From Haloarcula marina (GTDB taxonomy: Archaea > Halobacteriota > Halobacteria > Halobacteriales > Haloarculaceae), in NCBI RefSeq assembly GCF_024218775.1, contig NZ_CP100404.1, positions 372,001 through 436,000 of the forward strand: a stretch of DNA of 64,000 nt, read 5' to 3'. A program made the translations under genes and the position numbers. Positions 42,938 to 60,542 of the stretch are shown here, one piece after another; within the stretch, counting starts at the first letter, position 1; each line of letters starts with the position of its first letter. Below the pieces are notes generated by a model. That model made no database searches. It was not told the DNA's origin and saw only the letters and a list, made by a program, of their open reading frames with translations.

Positions 42938-43170
42938 ACACTCTTGAAGATTCCGTCTAGCCTATCATCGCTGATAATAATCTACCATATTTCGGACTAC
43001 ACAGGGTGAAATAATATTTTTACCGGCAAATATCTCTCCCGCTAGCTCTGTTTCGAGTGGAAATCGCCGCCGAGACGCCCTGATATGCGCGTTTGCGGCA
43101 GACGAACGACTGCCGTCCGTCAGACATCAATTTCGATAGCGACCCTCTGGGTGGGTATCAGCGACGGGAA
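42938..43170. other. region between cheD and arlCE, likely internal promoter
   Basis: A 233-base A/T-rich region between genes of the same strand. It contains the perfect palindrome at 42963-42976 and an A/T-rich stretch (43011-43031), so arlCE and the following genes probably have their own promoter in addition to read-through from cheY. Confidence 0.55.
42963..42976. promoter_or_regulatory. TATC-N6-GATA palindrome upstream of arlCE
   Basis: TATC ATCGCT GATA, a perfect match to the motif shared by the motility locus. Here no clear TATA box sits at the usual 12-13 base spacing, so the arrangement differs from the cheY and archaellin promoters. Confidence 0.5.
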
Positions 43171-45321: not shown

Positions 45322-45335
45322 TATCGCGTGTGATA
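45322..45335. promoter_or_regulatory. TATC-N6-GATA palindrome upstream of cheY
   Basis: TATC GCGTGT GATA, a perfect copy, starting 13 bases beyond the TATA box, in the position where archaeal activators bind. Confidence 0.6.
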
Positions 45336-45372: not shown

Positions 45373-47322
45373 TCACAGCGTCGGCAACACGTCGGCGACC
45401 ACGCGAACGAGGTCGAAGGCGTACGTCCCGTAGTCGAAGTACACCAGCCCCGACAGCAACAGGAACGCCGTGGCGAACCCGGCGGGGAGGGCGAGACCGG
45501 CGGCGACAGTCCGCGGCGAGATGCGGTCGGGGGCGAGCGTGTGGGCGACGACGACAGCGCCGCCGACCGCTGCCGCCGCGAGGTTCCACAGCGCGTGGTA
45601 CTGGACCGCCTCGCCGAGGGCCAGTTCGAGTCCGGCGATACCGCCGAGGACGACGGCCAGCGCGAACGCGAGGGACACGAGATACGACCCGACGAGCCGT
45701 CCCGTCGCCTCGGTGGCGGCGGTCCGAACCGCCGGTATCCGGCAGACGCCGTACGTCGCGAGCGGCACCATCGGATGGAGGTATCGCACGGTGAGTTGGC
45801 TGTAGGTCAGCGCCCGAGAGAGGTACACGACGGTCAGGACGGCGGCCACTGCAACGACGAGGAGGTCCGTCTGTCGAATCGGCGAGAGCGTTCGCGGGTC
45901 AACGCGTGCGAGCGCGTCTCGTCCGTCCTCGCGCAGTCGCCGTCCGACCAGCGCCGGGAGCGCGAGGAGCGCCCCCAGTATCGGCGTCGATTCCAAGACG
46001 GTGAGTTCGATGACCTCGTAGCTGTTGAGTCGGTAGGGAATCCCCGGGATATGGCCGCTCCGGACGAACGTGTGCCACATCTGCGTCGGGTTCCCCAGCG
46101 TCGCCACACCGTCGACGACGGCCCCGACCACGAACTCCGATACGGGACCGGCGGTGTCGCGGGCCGTCGAGAGGAACCCGCCGTCGGAATCTCTCCCGAC
46201 TCGCTCACCGCCGCCGGACTCGCTGCTCGTGCCCGCGGACCCGTCCGCCGCGGGACCGCCCGAGTCACCGCCGGGCGCGTCGGTCCCGCCGTCCGCCGAC
46301 GGCGAGAACTCCACGTCACCGCCCTCGACGTTCGGGAGCAGGCGCGGCGGTTCAGCGGGGTTCCCGGAGATGGCGTAGTTGGTCGCCAGCATCGGTGCCG
46401 TCGCCAGCAACAGCGCCGCGCCGAGGACCGCCAGCGTCCGGGTGTCGGTCCGCCGAGCGGTCGCGAGGTCGACGACGGCGAGCGTCCCGACGAGGAAGAA
46501 CGCCTCGAAGGCGTGAGTCCACGTGACGAACCCCGCGAATCCGTACGCGAACGCCCGCGCTACCAGCGCGGTCCGTCCCTCCCGGCGTCGACTCACCGCG
46601 AACGCGTACACCGCCCAGAGGGTCAGCGCCGCCACGAGCGTGTGCCGTTTCGGAATCGTCGCCCAGAAGCCGACCGGCGTCGCGACGCCAAGCGCTACCC
46701 CGGCAACGAGGCCGAGACGCCGCCCGTGGAACTCACTTACCAGTCGGTACATCGCCAGTCCCGCGGCCGCCGCGGCCAGCATCGTCGACAGTTGGTAGGC
46801 CGCGAGCGCGAGGCGGTCGGTGTCGAGATCCGTCGCCACCGGGAGGGTCGCGACGAACAGCACTGCGACGACCAGTCCGCCCATGGGCCGTATCCACCCC
46901 GCGTCGACGGTGTCGAGGCGGTCGAGTTGCCCGACGAAGACGAGGGCGACGCCCGCCCACAGTCCCGCCAACAGAAGGCGCGGGTCGACGACGACGGCCA
47001 GCGCCTCCAAGGCCCACACCAGCGGGACCGCGAGCGCGAGCTGACCGTAGTTACGGCCGTACAGCAACCCGTCGTACCGGTGCAGACCCGGCTGTGACCC
47101 CAGCGTGAGCGAGTAGGGAATCCGCGTGACGTGCAACTGGCCGTCGGCCAGCGCGACGAGCGTGTTCGCCGTCGCGTACGTGTCCTGGATGAAAAACCCT
47201 ACTCGCCACGTCAGCCCGAACCAACAGAGCAGACCCAGCCAGAGGACCAGTCCGTGTCGGTCGCCGAAGACGAGGCGGCCGACCGTTCGAGCGCGGTCAC
47301 GGATGGTCGCCGAACGGCTCAC
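45373..47322 (-). CDS. polytopic membrane protein, GT-C glycosyltransferase-like
   Basis: 649 residues with about a dozen membrane helices and a long Gly/Ser/Asp-rich loop near 335-400. The first external loop carries an aspartate after WRVGFF (FIQDTY), resembling the catalytic loop of GT-C lipid-sugar-dependent transferases. The helix-edge block VGFWATIPKRHT is shared exactly in position with the paralogue at 58593-60542 (also 649 residues). Stop and start overlap by four bases with its small secreted partner. Glycosylation of archaellins is a reasonable but unproven role. Confidence 0.75.
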   Translation of the reverse strand: MSRSATIRDRARTVGRLVFGDRHGLVLWLGLLCWFGLTWRVGFFIQDTYATANTLVALADGQLHVTRIPYSLTLGSQPGLHRYDGLLYGRNYGQLALAVPLVWALEALAVVVDPRLLLAGLWAGVALVFVGQLDRLDTVDAGWIRPMGGLVVAVLFVATLPVATDLDTDRLALAAYQLSTMLAAAAAGLAMYRLVSEFHGRRLGLVAGVALGVATPVGFWATIPKRHTLVAALTLWAVYAFAVSRRREGRTALVARAFAYGFAGFVTWTHAFEAFFLVGTLAVVDLATARRTDTRTLAVLGAALLLATAPMLATNYAISGNPAEPPRLLPNVEGGDVEFSPSADGGTDAPGGDSGGPAADGSAGTSSESGGGERVGRDSDGGFLSTARDTAGPVSEFVVGAVVDGVATLGNPTQMWHTFVRSGHIPGIPYRLNSYEVIELTVLESTPILGALLALPALVGRRLREDGRDALARVDPRTLSPIRQTDLLVVAVAAVLTVVYLSRALTYSQLTVRYLHPMVPLATYGVCRIPAVRTAATEATGRLVGSYLVSLAFALAVVLGGIAGLELALGEAVQYHALWNLAAAAVGGAVVVAHTLAPDRISPRTVAAGLALPAGFATAFLLLSGLVYFDYGTYAFDLVRVVADVLPTL

Positions 47323-47853: not shown

Positions 47854-48417
47854 TCAGAACTCCGCGCCGTCGCGCTCCTCGACGTGTTCGACGAGGTCGG
47901 CGATGCTGTCGTCGGGAGCGAGTCCCGTCGAGCGAACCATCGCTTTGAAACTGCCCGGCGGGAACTTCACGGGGACGTTCGACTCCGAGAGGAGGATGCC
48001 GAGAACGTCCTCGACGGCCGTCGAGCCGTCTATCTGCCGCCCGTACCAGAGCATAAAACTCTCGAAGACGGTGACGATATCGTTCGAAACGAGCTGTTGC
48101 TGGTCGACGTTTCCGTCGAACTTCGCGGTCACGTCGAAGCCGTAGCGACCGTTCGAGTCGGCCATCTGCTCGGCCAGCCACCGATGAACGTTCGCGTCAG
48201 TGAATTCCGGCGTTGCCGGTTCCGGCTCCGGTTGGGGCTCGGGTGTCGCATCCGAATCGACCTGATTGCCGTAGGCGTCGTCCGTTCGCACGTCCGGCGA
48301 GACGACGTACCGGTCCTCGTCGATCTCCGTGACGTGCTCGTCGTCGGCGATATCCAACTCTTCGGGGGAGAGTATCTTGCCGTCTTCTGGATTTGGTTCG
48401 TCTGACCCCCGGGCCAT
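47854..48417 (-). CDS. archaellin-linked DUF7500-like protein
   Basis: 187 residues from ATG 48417. The acidic N-terminus ends in ILSPEELDIADDEHVTEIDE and RYVVSPD, a block I associate with a haloarchaeal family found beside archaellin genes. A Pro/Glu linker and a helical domain of about 110 residues follow (VHRWLAEQMADSNGRYGFDV to the end). No signal peptide, so it is cytoplasmic. It may act in archaellin handling or regulation. Function inferred from position. Confidence 0.65.
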   Translation of the reverse strand: MARGSDEPNPEDGKILSPEELDIADDEHVTEIDEDRYVVSPDVRTDDAYGNQVDSDATPEPQPEPEPATPEFTDANVHRWLAEQMADSNGRYGFDVTAKFDGNVDQQQLVSNDIVTVFESFMLWYGRQIDGSTAVEDVLGILLSESNVPVKFPPGSFKAMVRSTGLAPDDSIADLVEHVEERDGAEF

Positions 48418-48493: not shown

Positions 48494-49105
48494 TTAGAGC
48501 GTGACGGCGGAGTTGCCGGACAGGGTTTCCGGAACGACCAGACGGACGGTGGTGGTACCACCAGACTGGGTGTTCAGTTGGATGGTGGCCGTCGCACCTT
48601 CACCGAGGCCCGACGAGCCGAGGTCGACTGCGCTGAACGTCAGCGTCGCGCGGTCGGACGGGTCGTTGAGGACTTGGCTGTCGGTAATCGAGGAGTCGTC
48701 GTCTTGGACTGTCGAGACGCTGTACGCGGTCCCGTTGGGTGCGCCGTTGGCGCTCGCCCCCTGCACGAGGTCGTAGGATCCAGAGGAATCGACCCACTGT
48801 GCAATCGTGCTACCGAGGTCGATGTTCGCCGCGCCGGGCGCTTTCTTGACGGTGATTTCCACGGTATCGACTTGCTTGTTGGTGTTGTCGATGTCCGTCC
48901 CAACCGTACTGACGACTTCGAGGCGGTTGGTCACTTGGTCACTGCTCTGTTGTCCGGTTTCCTCAGCGCTGCTCTGGAGGAATCCGGCGGTATTGATGAG
49001 GACGCCCGCGGCGATCGCCGCGACCAGCACCATCGCGATGAACACGATGAGCGTACCGATACCGACCTGCCCGCGGTCGTCGTCGTTTCGTAGTTTCCTA
49101 ACCAT
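48494..49105 (-). CDS. archaellin, copy A
   Basis: 203 residues. Class III signal [17 protein letters not shown] followed by the hydrophobic assembly helix. The rest is the beta-sandwich filament domain, with one N-glycosylation sequon (NGT in APNGTAYS). It differs from copy B at 49381-49992 at only two residues (V2 versus F2; K-Q versus K-E in NTNK(Q/E)VDT). The promoter has a TATA-like box at 49154-49162 and a perfect palindrome at 49175-49188. Confidence 0.96.
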
Positions 49106-49174: not shown

Positions 49175-49188
49175 TATCTCTGCTGATA
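49175..49188. promoter_or_regulatory. TATC-N6-GATA palindrome upstream of archaellin A
   Basis: TATC TCTGCT GATA, perfect, 12 bases beyond the TATA-like box. The wider context AAATATCTCTGCTGATAACAG resembles that at archaellin B and at the DUF7521-like gene. Confidence 0.6.
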
Positions 49189-49380: not shown

Positions 49381-49992
49381 TTAGAGCGTGACGGCGGAGT
49401 TGCCGGACAGGGTTTCCGGAACGACGAGGCGGACGGTGGTGGTGCCACCGGACTGGGTGTTCAGTTGGATGGTGGCCGTCGCACCTTCACCGAGGCCCGA
49501 CGAGCCGAGGTCGACCGCGCTGAACGTCAGCGTCGCGCGGTCGGACGGGTCGTTGAGGACTTGGCTGTCGGTAATCGAGGAATCGTCGTCTTGGACTGTC
49601 GAGACGCTGTACGCGGTCCCGTTGGGTGCGCCGTTGGCGCTCGCCCCCTGCACGAGGTCGTAGGATCCGGAGGAATCGACCCACTGTGCAATCGTGCTAC
49701 CGAGGTCGATGTTCGCCGCGCCGGGCGCTTTCTTGACGGTGATTTCCACGGTATCGACTTCCTTGTTGGTGTTGTCGATGTCCGTCCCGACTGTACTGAC
49801 GACTTCGAGGCGGTTGGTCACTTGGTCACTGCTCTGCTGTCCGGTTTCCTCGGCGCTGCTCTGAAGGAATCCGGCGGTATTGATGAGGACGCCCGCGGCG
49901 ATCGCCGCGACCAGCACCATCGCGATGAACACGATGAGCGTACCGATACCGACCTGCCCACGGTCGTCGTCGTTTCGTAGTTTCCTAAACAT
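49381..49992 (-). CDS. archaellin, copy B
   Basis: 203 residues, identical to copy A except for two positions. [17 protein letters not shown] leader, same sequon. Nucleotide identity extends into both flanks, with only scattered mostly synonymous changes, which points to recent duplication or ongoing gene conversion. TATA-like box at 50040-50048 and perfect palindrome at 50061-50074. Confidence 0.96.
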
Positions 49993-50060: not shown

Positions 50061-50074
50061 TATCCCAGTTGATA
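50061..50074. promoter_or_regulatory. TATC-N6-GATA palindrome upstream of archaellin B
   Basis: TATC CCAGTT GATA, perfect, 12 bases beyond the TATA-like box. The six inner bases differ from copy A while the half-sites do not, which suggests selection on the half-sites. Confidence 0.65.
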
Positions 50075-50634: not shown

Positions 50635-50648
50635 TATCTGTCCTGATA
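50635..50648. promoter_or_regulatory. TATC-N6-GATA palindrome upstream of the small membrane protein
   Basis: TATC TGTCCT GATA, perfect, 13 bases beyond the TATA box. It is embedded in AAATATCTGTCCTGATAATT, similar to the archaellin promoters outside the half-sites too. Confidence 0.6.
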
Positions 50649-50675: not shown

Positions 50676-51011
50676 CTATCCGTCGGAAAGCGTGCGCCAC
50701 GCTTCGTCGAGCTTGTTGGTCACTTCCGAACGCTCCTCGACGTGGACCGTCAGGTCGTCTTCGAAGTCGACCCGCACTTCGTCGACGTTGCGGCGGTAGA
50801 CTTTGATGCGTCGGCGGTCGTCTGAGAGGATATTGTCGTGGAGTTCGAGAAGGTCGTGTTCGGTGAGTTCGTCGATTCGACGGTAGCAGGTCGCAATCGG
50901 AATTCCGAGTTCGTCGCTCAAGTCTTGCGCCGAAACCGGTTCGTCGGTGGCATCGAGGATTTCGGCGCTGTATTTATTCCCCAGCGTCTGTAGAAGATCC
51001 GCTGAAGCCAT
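50676..51011 (-). CDS. winged-helix (ArsR-like) regulator in the motility locus
   Basis: 111 residues from ATG 51011 (MASADLLQTLGNKYSAEILD). Winged helix-turn-helix: PVSAQDLSDELGIPIATCYRRIDELTEHDLLELHD with ATCYRRIDEL as recognition helix, then the wing (SDDRRRIKVYRR) and a C-terminal extension with a coiled segment for dimerisation. A dimer of such a protein would read a short palindrome. Its own promoter carries a perfect TATC-N6-GATA directly against the TATA box. It is my candidate regulator for the motility palindromes. That role is inferred. Confidence 0.8.
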   Translation of the reverse strand: MASADLLQTLGNKYSAEILDATDEPVSAQDLSDELGIPIATCYRRIDELTEHDLLELHDNILSDDRRRIKVYRRNVDEVRVDFEDDLTVHVEERSEVTNKLDEAWRTLSDG

Positions 51012-51036
51012 CGTTATCACATCATGAATTTTGAAT

Positions 51037-51044
51037 TTTATAAA
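51037..51044 (-). promoter_or_regulatory. TATA box of the winged-helix regulator
   Basis: TTTATAAA, 26-33 bases upstream of the ATG, strong. Confidence 0.7.
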
Positions 51045-51046
51045 AC

Positions 51047-51060
51047 TATCGCCGATGATA
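51047..51060. promoter_or_regulatory. TATC-N6-GATA palindrome abutting the regulator's TATA box
   Basis: TATC GCCGAT GATA, perfect. Only two bases separate it from the TATA box, over the BRE position, unlike the 12-13 base spacing at the other genes. Binding here would block TFB and so repress, compatible with autorepression. Confidence 0.6.
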
Positions 51061-51168: not shown

Positions 51169-51894
51169 CTAAATCGGTGATTCCTCCTCGCTCATCATCG
51201 AGAAGGCACTGGCGTTCTGATGGACCTGAATCCCGCCCCAATCTATCTCCATCGGATAGATATCGGTCTCGATATTCTGCTTGCGCATCTTCGCGACCCA
51301 GACGTAGCGGCTGACCCCGGAGTCGGTGGGAGTCTGGATGAGGTAGATGTTCCCGTCGGTGAGGTAGTTCTCCAGTCCGATTTCGGTGTCCGGGAAGACG
51401 GCTCCCTGCTCGTTGGTCATCAGCGTCGTCAGGCCGTTGCTCCGAAGGATGTCGGTGAACTTCAGGAGGTAGGTCCGCTTCTCGGTCTCGTCTTCGAAGA
51501 AGAGGTTGAACATCGCCAGCGAGTCGAGGACGAGTCGGTCGTAGGACTCGTCTTCGAGGTCGTCCAACAGGAGGTCGAGCGAGGACGAGAAGTCGTTCTC
51601 GCGGAGGAGGACCTGCTTGTCGTACACCTTGATGTCGCCGTTGTCGACGTACTCGGGCCACTTATCGAAGCCGATGGACTCGGCTGCCTGCCGGAGGTCC
51701 GACTCGTTCTCTTCGAAGGAGAGGTAGATGCCGGATTCGTCGAACATCTCGACACCGTTGTAAATGTACTGGAGACAGAGGATGGATTTCCCCGCGCCCG
51801 GGTTGCCGCTGATGAGCGTCGTCGAGTTCTTCACGATACCGCCGTTGAGGATGTCGTCGAGGCCGTCGATGCCTGTCTTTGTGAGTTCAATCAT
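51169..51894 (-). CDS. KaiC/RAD55-like RecA-superfamily ATPase in the taxis locus
   Basis: 241 residues, one RecA domain. Walker A GNPGAGKS (about 30-37), a glutamate pair EEN in the switch region (LSFEENESDLRQ), Walker B RLVLDSLAM, and a C-terminal VWVAKMRKQNIETDIYPMEI. It is related in fold to ArlH but lacks ArlH-specific features. It sits between cheW and the winged-helix gene on the same strand. A signalling or motor-regulating role is possible; none is known. Confidence 0.85.
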   Translation of the reverse strand: MIELTKTGIDGLDDILNGGIVKNSTTLISGNPGAGKSILCLQYIYNGVEMFDESGIYLSFEENESDLRQAAESIGFDKWPEYVDNGDIKVYDKQVLLRENDFSSSLDLLLDDLEDESYDRLVLDSLAMFNLFFEDETEKRTYLLKFTDILRSNGLTTLMTNEQGAVFPDTEIGLENYLTDGNIYLIQTPTDSGVSRYVWVAKMRKQNIETDIYPMEIDWGGIQVHQNASAFSMMSEEESPI

Positions 51895-52470: not shown

Positions 52471-52484
52471 TATCAACTTTGATT
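52471..52484. promoter_or_regulatory. near-palindrome TATC-N6-GATT between cheW and cheB
   Basis: TATC AACTTT GATT has one mismatch to the motif. It sits 13 bases from the cheW TATA box on one side and about 12 from the cheB-side TATA box on the other, i.e. at the midpoint of the divergent promoters. Confidence 0.5.
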
Positions 52485-58592: not shown

Positions 58593-60542
58593 TCACGCGG
58601 GCGGCGAACTCCCCAGGAGTCGGGCGTAGTGGACGTGTTCACCGAGCAGGCGCGACAGCGGGAGGAGGAATTCCCCGGTGACCGGAAACAGCGACAGACC
58701 GGCGACCAGCAGGTACGTCGTCGTCGCACCGGCGGCGACGCCCAGCGCGAACGGGCCGCCCCGCCGATAGTCGCCGGTCACCGTCGTCACCGCCGCCCAC
58801 GCCACGACGCCAGCGCTGGCGGTGAGTGCGGCGAGCGCGTACAGTTGGACCGCCTCGCCGAGGACGAGTCCGCCGACGGCTATCGCACCGAGATACGCGG
58901 GGACGGCGACCGCGACAGTTACGGCGTAGGCAGTGGCGAGCGACCGTCCGTTCTCGGTGACGACGCCGCGGACTACGGGCAAGCGGACGAGCCAGTACGC
59001 GCCGAGGACGTACAGCGGGTGGAGGTAGCGGACCGTCAGCATGTGGTAGGTCGGGAGCGCGCGGAAGAAGAGGCCGAGGAGGCCGAGGGCGTAGACGACG
59101 GTGAACGCGTCGAGGACGCGCGCGGGCGACCACGCTCGCGGGTGGGGCCACTCCACGCCTCCGAATCGCCGTCGGACGGCGAGTATCGGATAGCCGACCA
59201 GCGCGCCGAGTGCGGGCATCGAGGCGAGGACGCTCAGGTTGATGGCGGCGTCCTTTCCCGGCGGGAGCGCCGGGACGTAGCCGGTGCGGACGAACACCCG
59301 GACCAGGCGCACGGGGTCGAACAGGGCGGCGTAGGAGGCGGTGAACTGGCCGAGGACCCTTCCGGCGGGGAGCGACGCGAGCGACGGCAGTCTGAACCCT
59401 CGTCCGCTGGTGGTGTCGCCGCCGCTTGCCCCAGCAGTATCGACCGGCGTCCCGCCGCCCGAGTCCCCATTCGCACCGCCCGTCGTCGCGCCGTCGCCGG
59501 TCCCGCTCAGCACGTCACCGGTGTAGGCGTCCAGCAGGCGGGGCGGGGCGAGCGGGTCGCCCGAGATAGCGACGTTCGTCAGGACGAACGGGACGAGCGA
59601 GAGCGCGAGCGCCGCCACGACGGGACCGAGGTCGCGCGGCCCGTTCCAGCGGGCCGTCGGCAGGTCGACGGCGGCGACGGCGAGCAAGAGGACGAACCCC
59701 TCCGCCGCGTGGACCCACGCGGCGAGGCCGACCCAGACGTAGGTGAGGGCGCGGAACCGGGTCGCCGTCCGACGGGTTGAGGCCTCGCGGCTTCGGTACA
59801 GCGTGTACATCGCGGCGGCGACGAACAGGGCCGTCACCGTGTGGCGCTTCGGGAGCGTCGCCCAGAAGCCGACCGGACTGGCGAGGACGAGGGTCAACGC
59901 CGCGGCCGTCCCGATTCGCCGGTCGTACAGCCGCGTCACGAGGCGGTAGCAGACGACGGCGAGCAGGGCGGCCGAGAGCGCCGTCGTCAGTTGGAGCGCC
60001 ACCAGCGGGAGCCAGCGAGTCGAGAGCGGCGTCGCGACGAACAGCGACGCGACGAACAGGGTTCCGCCGACCGTGAGGCCCGCCAGCAGGCCGTCGCGGG
60101 GCCGGTCGTGCCACCGACCGACGCCGCGGCCCACGCCAACGACGGCGAGCGCCCACAGACCGGTCAGCAACACGCCCACGTCGGCGACGGCGGCGAGCGG
60201 TCGCAGGAGGACGTACCACAGCGCCGAGACGAGGACGACGCCGTAGTTGCGGCCGTACACCCGGCCGTCGACGAGGACCGCACCGGGGGTCGCCCCCGAC
60301 GGCGGGCCGTACACGGGGTCGACGATGTGCAGGTGGCCGTCGACGACGGCGAGCAACGCGTTCGCGAAGGTGTACTGGTCGTTCGAGAAGAAGCCGAGTC
60401 GCCACGTCAGGCCGACCCACGCGAGCGTGCCGAGAAACACGGTCACGCCGACCCGGTCGCCGAAGACCGCCCGCCAGGTCGCGGTGCGGAGTTCGTCGAC
60501 GGTGACCGTCTCGCCCGCGAGCAGTCGGTCGGCGACGCTCAC
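58593..60542 (-). CDS. polytopic membrane protein, GT-C glycosyltransferase-like (paralogue 2)
   Basis: 649 residues, the same length as the paralogue at 45373-47322. Shared features: WRLGFFSNDQY (an aspartate in the first external loop), the VDGRVYGRNYG block, VGFWATLPKRHT and YHMLTVRYLHPLY near the end, and a Gly/Ser/Asp-rich linker at about 345-385. About a dozen membrane helices. It overlaps by four bases its small exported partner. It converges with cheF, whose stop abuts its own. GT-C-type lipid-sugar transfer is a reasonable guess. Confidence 0.75.
   Translation of the reverse strand: MSVADRLLAGETVTVDELRTATWRAVFGDRVGVTVFLGTLAWVGLTWRLGFFSNDQYTFANALLAVVDGHLHIVDPVYGPPSGATPGAVLVDGRVYGRNYGVVLVSALWYVLLRPLAAVADVGVLLTGLWALAVVGVGRGVGRWHDRPRDGLLAGLTVGGTLFVASLFVATPLSTRWLPLVALQLTTALSAALLAVVCYRLVTRLYDRRIGTAAALTLVLASPVGFWATLPKRHTVTALFVAAAMYTLYRSREASTRRTATRFRALTYVWVGLAAWVHAAEGFVLLLAVAAVDLPTARWNGPRDLGPVVAALALSLVPFVLTNVAISGDPLAPPRLLDAYTGDVLSGTGDGATTGGANGDSGGGTPVDTAGASGGDTTSGRGFRLPSLASLPAGRVLGQFTASYAALFDPVRLVRVFVRTGYVPALPPGKDAAINLSVLASMPALGALVGYPILAVRRRFGGVEWPHPRAWSPARVLDAFTVVYALGLLGLFFRALPTYHMLTVRYLHPLYVLGAYWLVRLPVVRGVVTENGRSLATAYAVTVAVAVPAYLGAIAVGGLVLGEAVQLYALAALTASAGVVAWAAVTTVTGDYRRGGPFALGVAAGATTTYLLVAGLSLFPVTGEFLLPLSRLLGEHVHYARLLGSSPPA

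Follow-up and report, generated by a model that had tools for sequence, protein, structure and literature searches.

The gene for a 111-residue winged-helix protein at positions 50676–51011 (minus strand) of the window, the 64,000-nucleotide stretch of DNA analyzed here, is, as judged from sequence comparison, an ortholog of csmR, and its promoter carries a CsmR-type palindrome that adjoins the TATA box and covers the position of the TFB-recognition element (BRE). We put at roughly two in three the probability that this CsmR ortholog acts through target sites that precede the TATA boxes of motility genes by 14 nt, and limits its own synthesis through the BRE-covering self-site, by excluding TFB/TBP.

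CsmR (HVO_1209) of Haloferax volcanii was described in June 2026 in PLoS Genetics as a 13-kDa winged-helix protein, encoded next to arlA1/arlA2, that controls swimming and cell shape jointly (PMC13286277). According to the main text of that report, the ChIP-seq analysis yielded the semi-palindrome TATCA(N4)TGATA, which 50 of 65 peaks contained next to the TATA box, and the csmR transcript level was steady across conditions. Deletion of csmR abolished motility, yet archaellum and chemotaxis transcripts increased; deletion of the KaiC-like gene cirA resulted in hypermotility. The authors left open whether CsmR is an activator or has a dual function. CsmR has so far been described in this one species, with a paradoxical sign of action.

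The open reading frame in the window (ATG at 51011, stop at 50676) matches Pfam HTH_20 with 46.8 bits (cut-off, 27), in agreement with the winged-helix gene proposed in the original prediction. Its product is a small winged-helix protein with the sequence of CsmR: identity to the CsmR of Haloferax was about 60% in an alignment with twelve loci of other Haloferax, the HVO_1209 record itself not being among the loci returned, and the recognition helix, PIATCYRRI, showed no variation across 36 CsmR orthologs. The gene order in the window is cheW-kaiC-csmR-DUF7521-arlA1-arlA2, all on the minus strand, with cheB and cheA divergent, so that csmR is linked, as in H. volcanii (PMC13286277, main text), to the archaellin genes and to a KaiC-like gene (51169–51894, minus strand), which Pfam and synteny identify as the likely cirA ortholog. 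The same order was seen on a Halovenus contig, whose CsmR is 81% identical, and we accordingly place the window in the Haloarculaceae; its genus is probably Haloarcula. In the Haloferax loci the order differs (cheY-csmR-arlA-arlA-kaiC, matching PMC13286277), and csmR was not seen to have a DUF7521 gene beside it. By eye, the Haloferax gene beside csmR (the HVO_1208 position; L065:5600-6350) resembles the window ORF at 47854–48399. The synteny, the 60% identity and the invariant recognition helix together identify the gene as a csmR ortholog, and the regulator itself is therefore already known. Natrialbaceae loci labeled as CsmR were excluded from the main statistic; they share about 50% identity and lie mostly distant from motility genes.

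The predicted structure of the protein (mean pLDDT, 87) is closest among PDB folds to Phr, the heat-shock regulator of Pyrococcus furiosus (2P4W, E = 1.5e-5), followed by ArsR-like proteins; a sequence search of the PDB with the csmR product returned no matching chain. Phr, which is also named as the nearest fold in the main text of PMC13286277, is a palindrome-binding negative regulator (PMC10746257), but differs from CsmR in its regulon and signal, in its length (198 residues) and in its sequence (22% identity). The Lrp/AsnC label used in PMC13286277 was supported neither by the fold nor by Pfam, in which the HTH_AsnC-type match reached 16.2 bits against a cut-off of 27 and no match was obtained in the csmR product for the RAM domain, the C-terminal ligand-binding domain that marks Lrp/AsnC proteins. 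In being a winged-helix regulator of archaellin genes, CsmR also resembles EarA, the euryarchaeal archaellum activator.

A search of the window with the independently derived ChIP motif TATCA(N4)TGATA, allowing one mismatch at most, yielded 7 sites, all at motility promoters, as compared with a mean of 0.07 in 100 shuffled sequences, none of which reached 7. On the minus strand, boxes precede cheY (45322–45335), arlA2 (49175–49188), the archaellin gene arlA1 (50061–50074) and the DUF7521 gene (50635–50648), with a TATA box or, for DUF7521, a TATA-like element about 14 nt downstream. The divergent cheW (minus strand) and cheB (plus strand) genes have a common box (52471–52484), located 14 nt from each TATA, and the spacings at arlA1, arlA2, cheY and DUF7521 equal this value within one base. 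The sole box without a mismatch (42963–42976, minus strand) lies upstream of an ArlC/E-like gene and has no clear TATA 14 nt downstream. Apart from the ArlC/E-like gene, where a TATA-like element is weak or absent, the site lies further from the TATA box at the other promoters than at csmR, as had been proposed. The placement of TATCA(N4)TGATA sites ahead of the TATA boxes in arl and che promoters matches CsmR of H. volcanii, which shares the binding motif, the target genes and the position of the motif upstream of BRE/TATA (PMC13286277, main text).

The spacing was also retained in other genomes. In a survey of up to 90 csmR-centred sequences, the TATA box was located at 14 nt in 33 of 33 scored loci for cheY, 14 of 15 for cheW and 8 of 8 for cheB, and at 14–15 nt in 34 of 36 for DUF7521, where the values of 15 stem from the scoring of TTTAATA. 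When compared with 29 permuted palindromes of equal make-up, the TATCA palindrome held the top rank upstream of cheY, where it was present in 20 of 23 genera and the runner-up permutation in 0.5, as well as upstream of DUF7521, arlA, cheW and cheB. The same analysis found no TATCA palindrome upstream of the operon-internal cheC-like gene. The proposed role of the protein as a regulator of the motility regulon is strongly supported, since this palindrome is the ChIP-seq motif of CsmR, to which the protein is orthologous.

The two archaellin genes (48494–49093 and 49381–49980) are nearly identical over most of their length, which suggests a recent duplication or gene conversion, and their boxes differ in the centre.

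For the csmR promoter, the gene strand reads, 5' to 3', TATCATCGGCGATA-GT-TTTATAAAA. The self-site TATCATCGGCGATA is located at 51047–51060 (minus strand) and the TATA box, TTTATAAA, which was assigned by inspection, at 51037–51044 (minus strand), leaving the two bases between them that had been claimed. The original description of the palindrome as perfect holds for its 4-bp arms, TATC/GATA, whereas comparison with the 5-bp arms of the motif TATCA(N4)TGATA as published reveals one mismatch. The self-site, with a gap of 2 nt to the TATA box, was observed in all 21 sampled genomes, 15 from the same genus and 6 from a sister genus, which are mutually related and thus do not represent 21 independent events of conservation. 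Over the 19 distinct sequences, 10 of 10 columns were invariant in the half-sites, as compared with 2 of 4 in the centre, 0 of 2 in the spacer and 0 of 30 in the upstream flank. A further genus, g5, has a degenerate self-site, TTTCATCGTCGATA. The main text of PMC13286277 contains no mention of a self-site at csmR, and relative to that text the conservation of the site at an exact position is a new finding from sequence comparison.

In the archaeal core promoter, a dimer bound to the BRE beside the TATA box would compete with TFB/TBP, whereas a dimer bound 14 nt away would leave both BRE and TATA free. A CsmR dimer at the target sites of the archaellin, chemotaxis and DUF7521 genes would thus stay outside the BRE/TATA footprint and could cooperate with TFB/TBP. 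At the csmR promoter, the predicted site lies 2 nt from the TATA box, so that it overlaps the core promoter and covers the BRE, as expected for a negative autoregulator, and bound CsmR should shut out TFB/TBP. We infer that CsmR occupies this site in the present organism and, by excluding TFB, exerts negative feedback on its own synthesis. Autorepression, whose geometry is supported by the comparative footprint, is the best reading of the self-site; it predicts negative feedback on csmR without settling the sign at the 14-nt targets, where published data argue against a simple activator. The original prediction, which further held CsmR to be a positive regulator of motility, is partly supported overall; on this last point the H. 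volcanii deletion points both ways, with loss of swimming but raised arl/che transcripts.

In other lineages, the self-site was found elsewhere. Many other genera have a palindrome of the TATCA type, with two mismatches at most, immediately before the csmR start codon, as exemplified by TATCTATATTGATA in Haloplanus and AATCANNNNCGATA in the genus g17. This start-proximal palindrome was found in 14.25 of 38 non-Natrialbaceae genera, ranking first among 30 permuted palindromes (control median, 0.17). The window carries GTGATAACG at 51012–51020 (minus strand), directly before the start codon, which by comparison is a residual half-site where many genera hold the CsmR-like palindrome. The sampled csmR promoters of Haloferax, Halobellus and Halogeometricum had neither the start-proximal site nor a box at 2 nt, unlike the promoter in the window. 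Since the box is present in the own and sister genera and the start-proximal site in others, while Haloferax, Halobellus and Halogeometricum have neither, a predicted self-site located where it would obstruct is widespread without being universal, and the lineages that lack it include relatives of the model species. Lineages thus differ in whether the self-site covers the BRE, lies close to the start codon or is missing, and this variation in spacing to the TATA box provides a natural experiment for comparing activation with repression in archaea.

Three other explanations of the self-site bear on these data. CsmR might act on its own promoter as an activator or dual regulator, since in archaea position alone cannot give the sign, and the sign at the targets is itself ambiguous in the main-text data on H. 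volcanii (PMC13286277). However, a dimer located 2 nt from the TATA box would overlap with the BRE, and the self-site that other genera have instead, between the TATA box and the start codon, would be obstructing too; we therefore consider this explanation unlikely. The conserved block might also be simply a strong BRE and TATA box, as the right half-site, GGCGATA, adjoins the TATA box, where TFB would read it in any case. The equally invariant left half-site, TATCA, is located 12–16 nt upstream of the TATA box, outside the BRE, the 2-nt spacer and the upstream flank vary, and GGCGATA is absent from most other csmR promoters, leaving only a small chance that no CsmR operator is present. Even so, the right half-site could be conserved partly as a strong BRE. 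Service of the self-site to a paralogous winged-helix protein is more improbable still: the genome encodes at least five CsmR-like paralogs, but their recognition helix differs, and the site fits the ChIP motif of CsmR itself.

Other observations count against autorepression by CsmR. With csmR following the KaiC-like gene on the same strand at a distance of 157 nt, transcripts that read through from cheW/cirA could escape the repression of csmR. In addition, the csmR transcript is stable in H. volcanii, though the Haloferax promoters lack the self-site.

The DUF7521 gene (PF24365; 50308–50583, minus strand) encodes a small membrane protein with at least two strongly hydrophobic segments, which we propose as a partner of CsmR. 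The 3.74-Mb haloarchaeal host genome has nine DUF7521 matches, eight of which follow a CsmR-like winged-helix gene on the same strand within a few hundred bases. In other genomes, such a gene was located upstream on the same strand in 35 of 40 sampled DUF7521 loci, a sample skewed to high-scoring members, with many of the gaps being 14–40 nt, and eight winged-helix proteins sampled from the pairs were HTH_20 proteins. A literature search on DUF7521 found no paper. This arrangement places csmR in a haloarchaeal group of winged-helix genes paired with a DUF7521 gene, which is a new finding. The recurrent pairing suggests a possible entry point for a signal to CsmR, with the hypothesis that the DUF7521 protein senses for CsmR. 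More tentatively, and less probably than not, CsmR may belong to a large haloarchaeal signaling family in which a small winged-helix regulator is encoded together with a DUF7521 membrane sensor that retains or frees it. CsmR would then form a double loop, limiting its own gene via the BRE-covering site and driving or gating its partner via the 14-nt site; if this is true, two feedbacks set the swimming state.

In the whole genome, the motif gave 42 sites as compared with 24 for a reversed control pattern, and many single matches outside motility promoters are therefore due to chance. Three sites stood out. A box without mismatch precedes a HemAT-like receptor gene (protoglobin and MCPsignal domains; C1:118006-118019), with the TATA box at about 13 nt, and another box precedes the gene of a soluble MCP-type chemoreceptor (C1:1070245-1070258). 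The third lies about 14 nt before the TATA box of the gene for salactin, an actin homolog (PF25229; C1:2479086-2479099), and recurs at that distance in the genomes sampled from the same genus, the sister genus and g5. This box may connect CsmR directly with the cytoskeleton, and these findings agree with the published role of CsmR in controlling swimming and shape together. As for a MinD-like gene, its box is not conserved in two sampled congeners, and the gene was dropped as a target.

The motility cluster is flanked by genes for two 649-residue membrane proteins (45373–47322 and 58593–60542) that look similar by eye; a gene for a small secreted-type protein precedes each of them on the minus strand.
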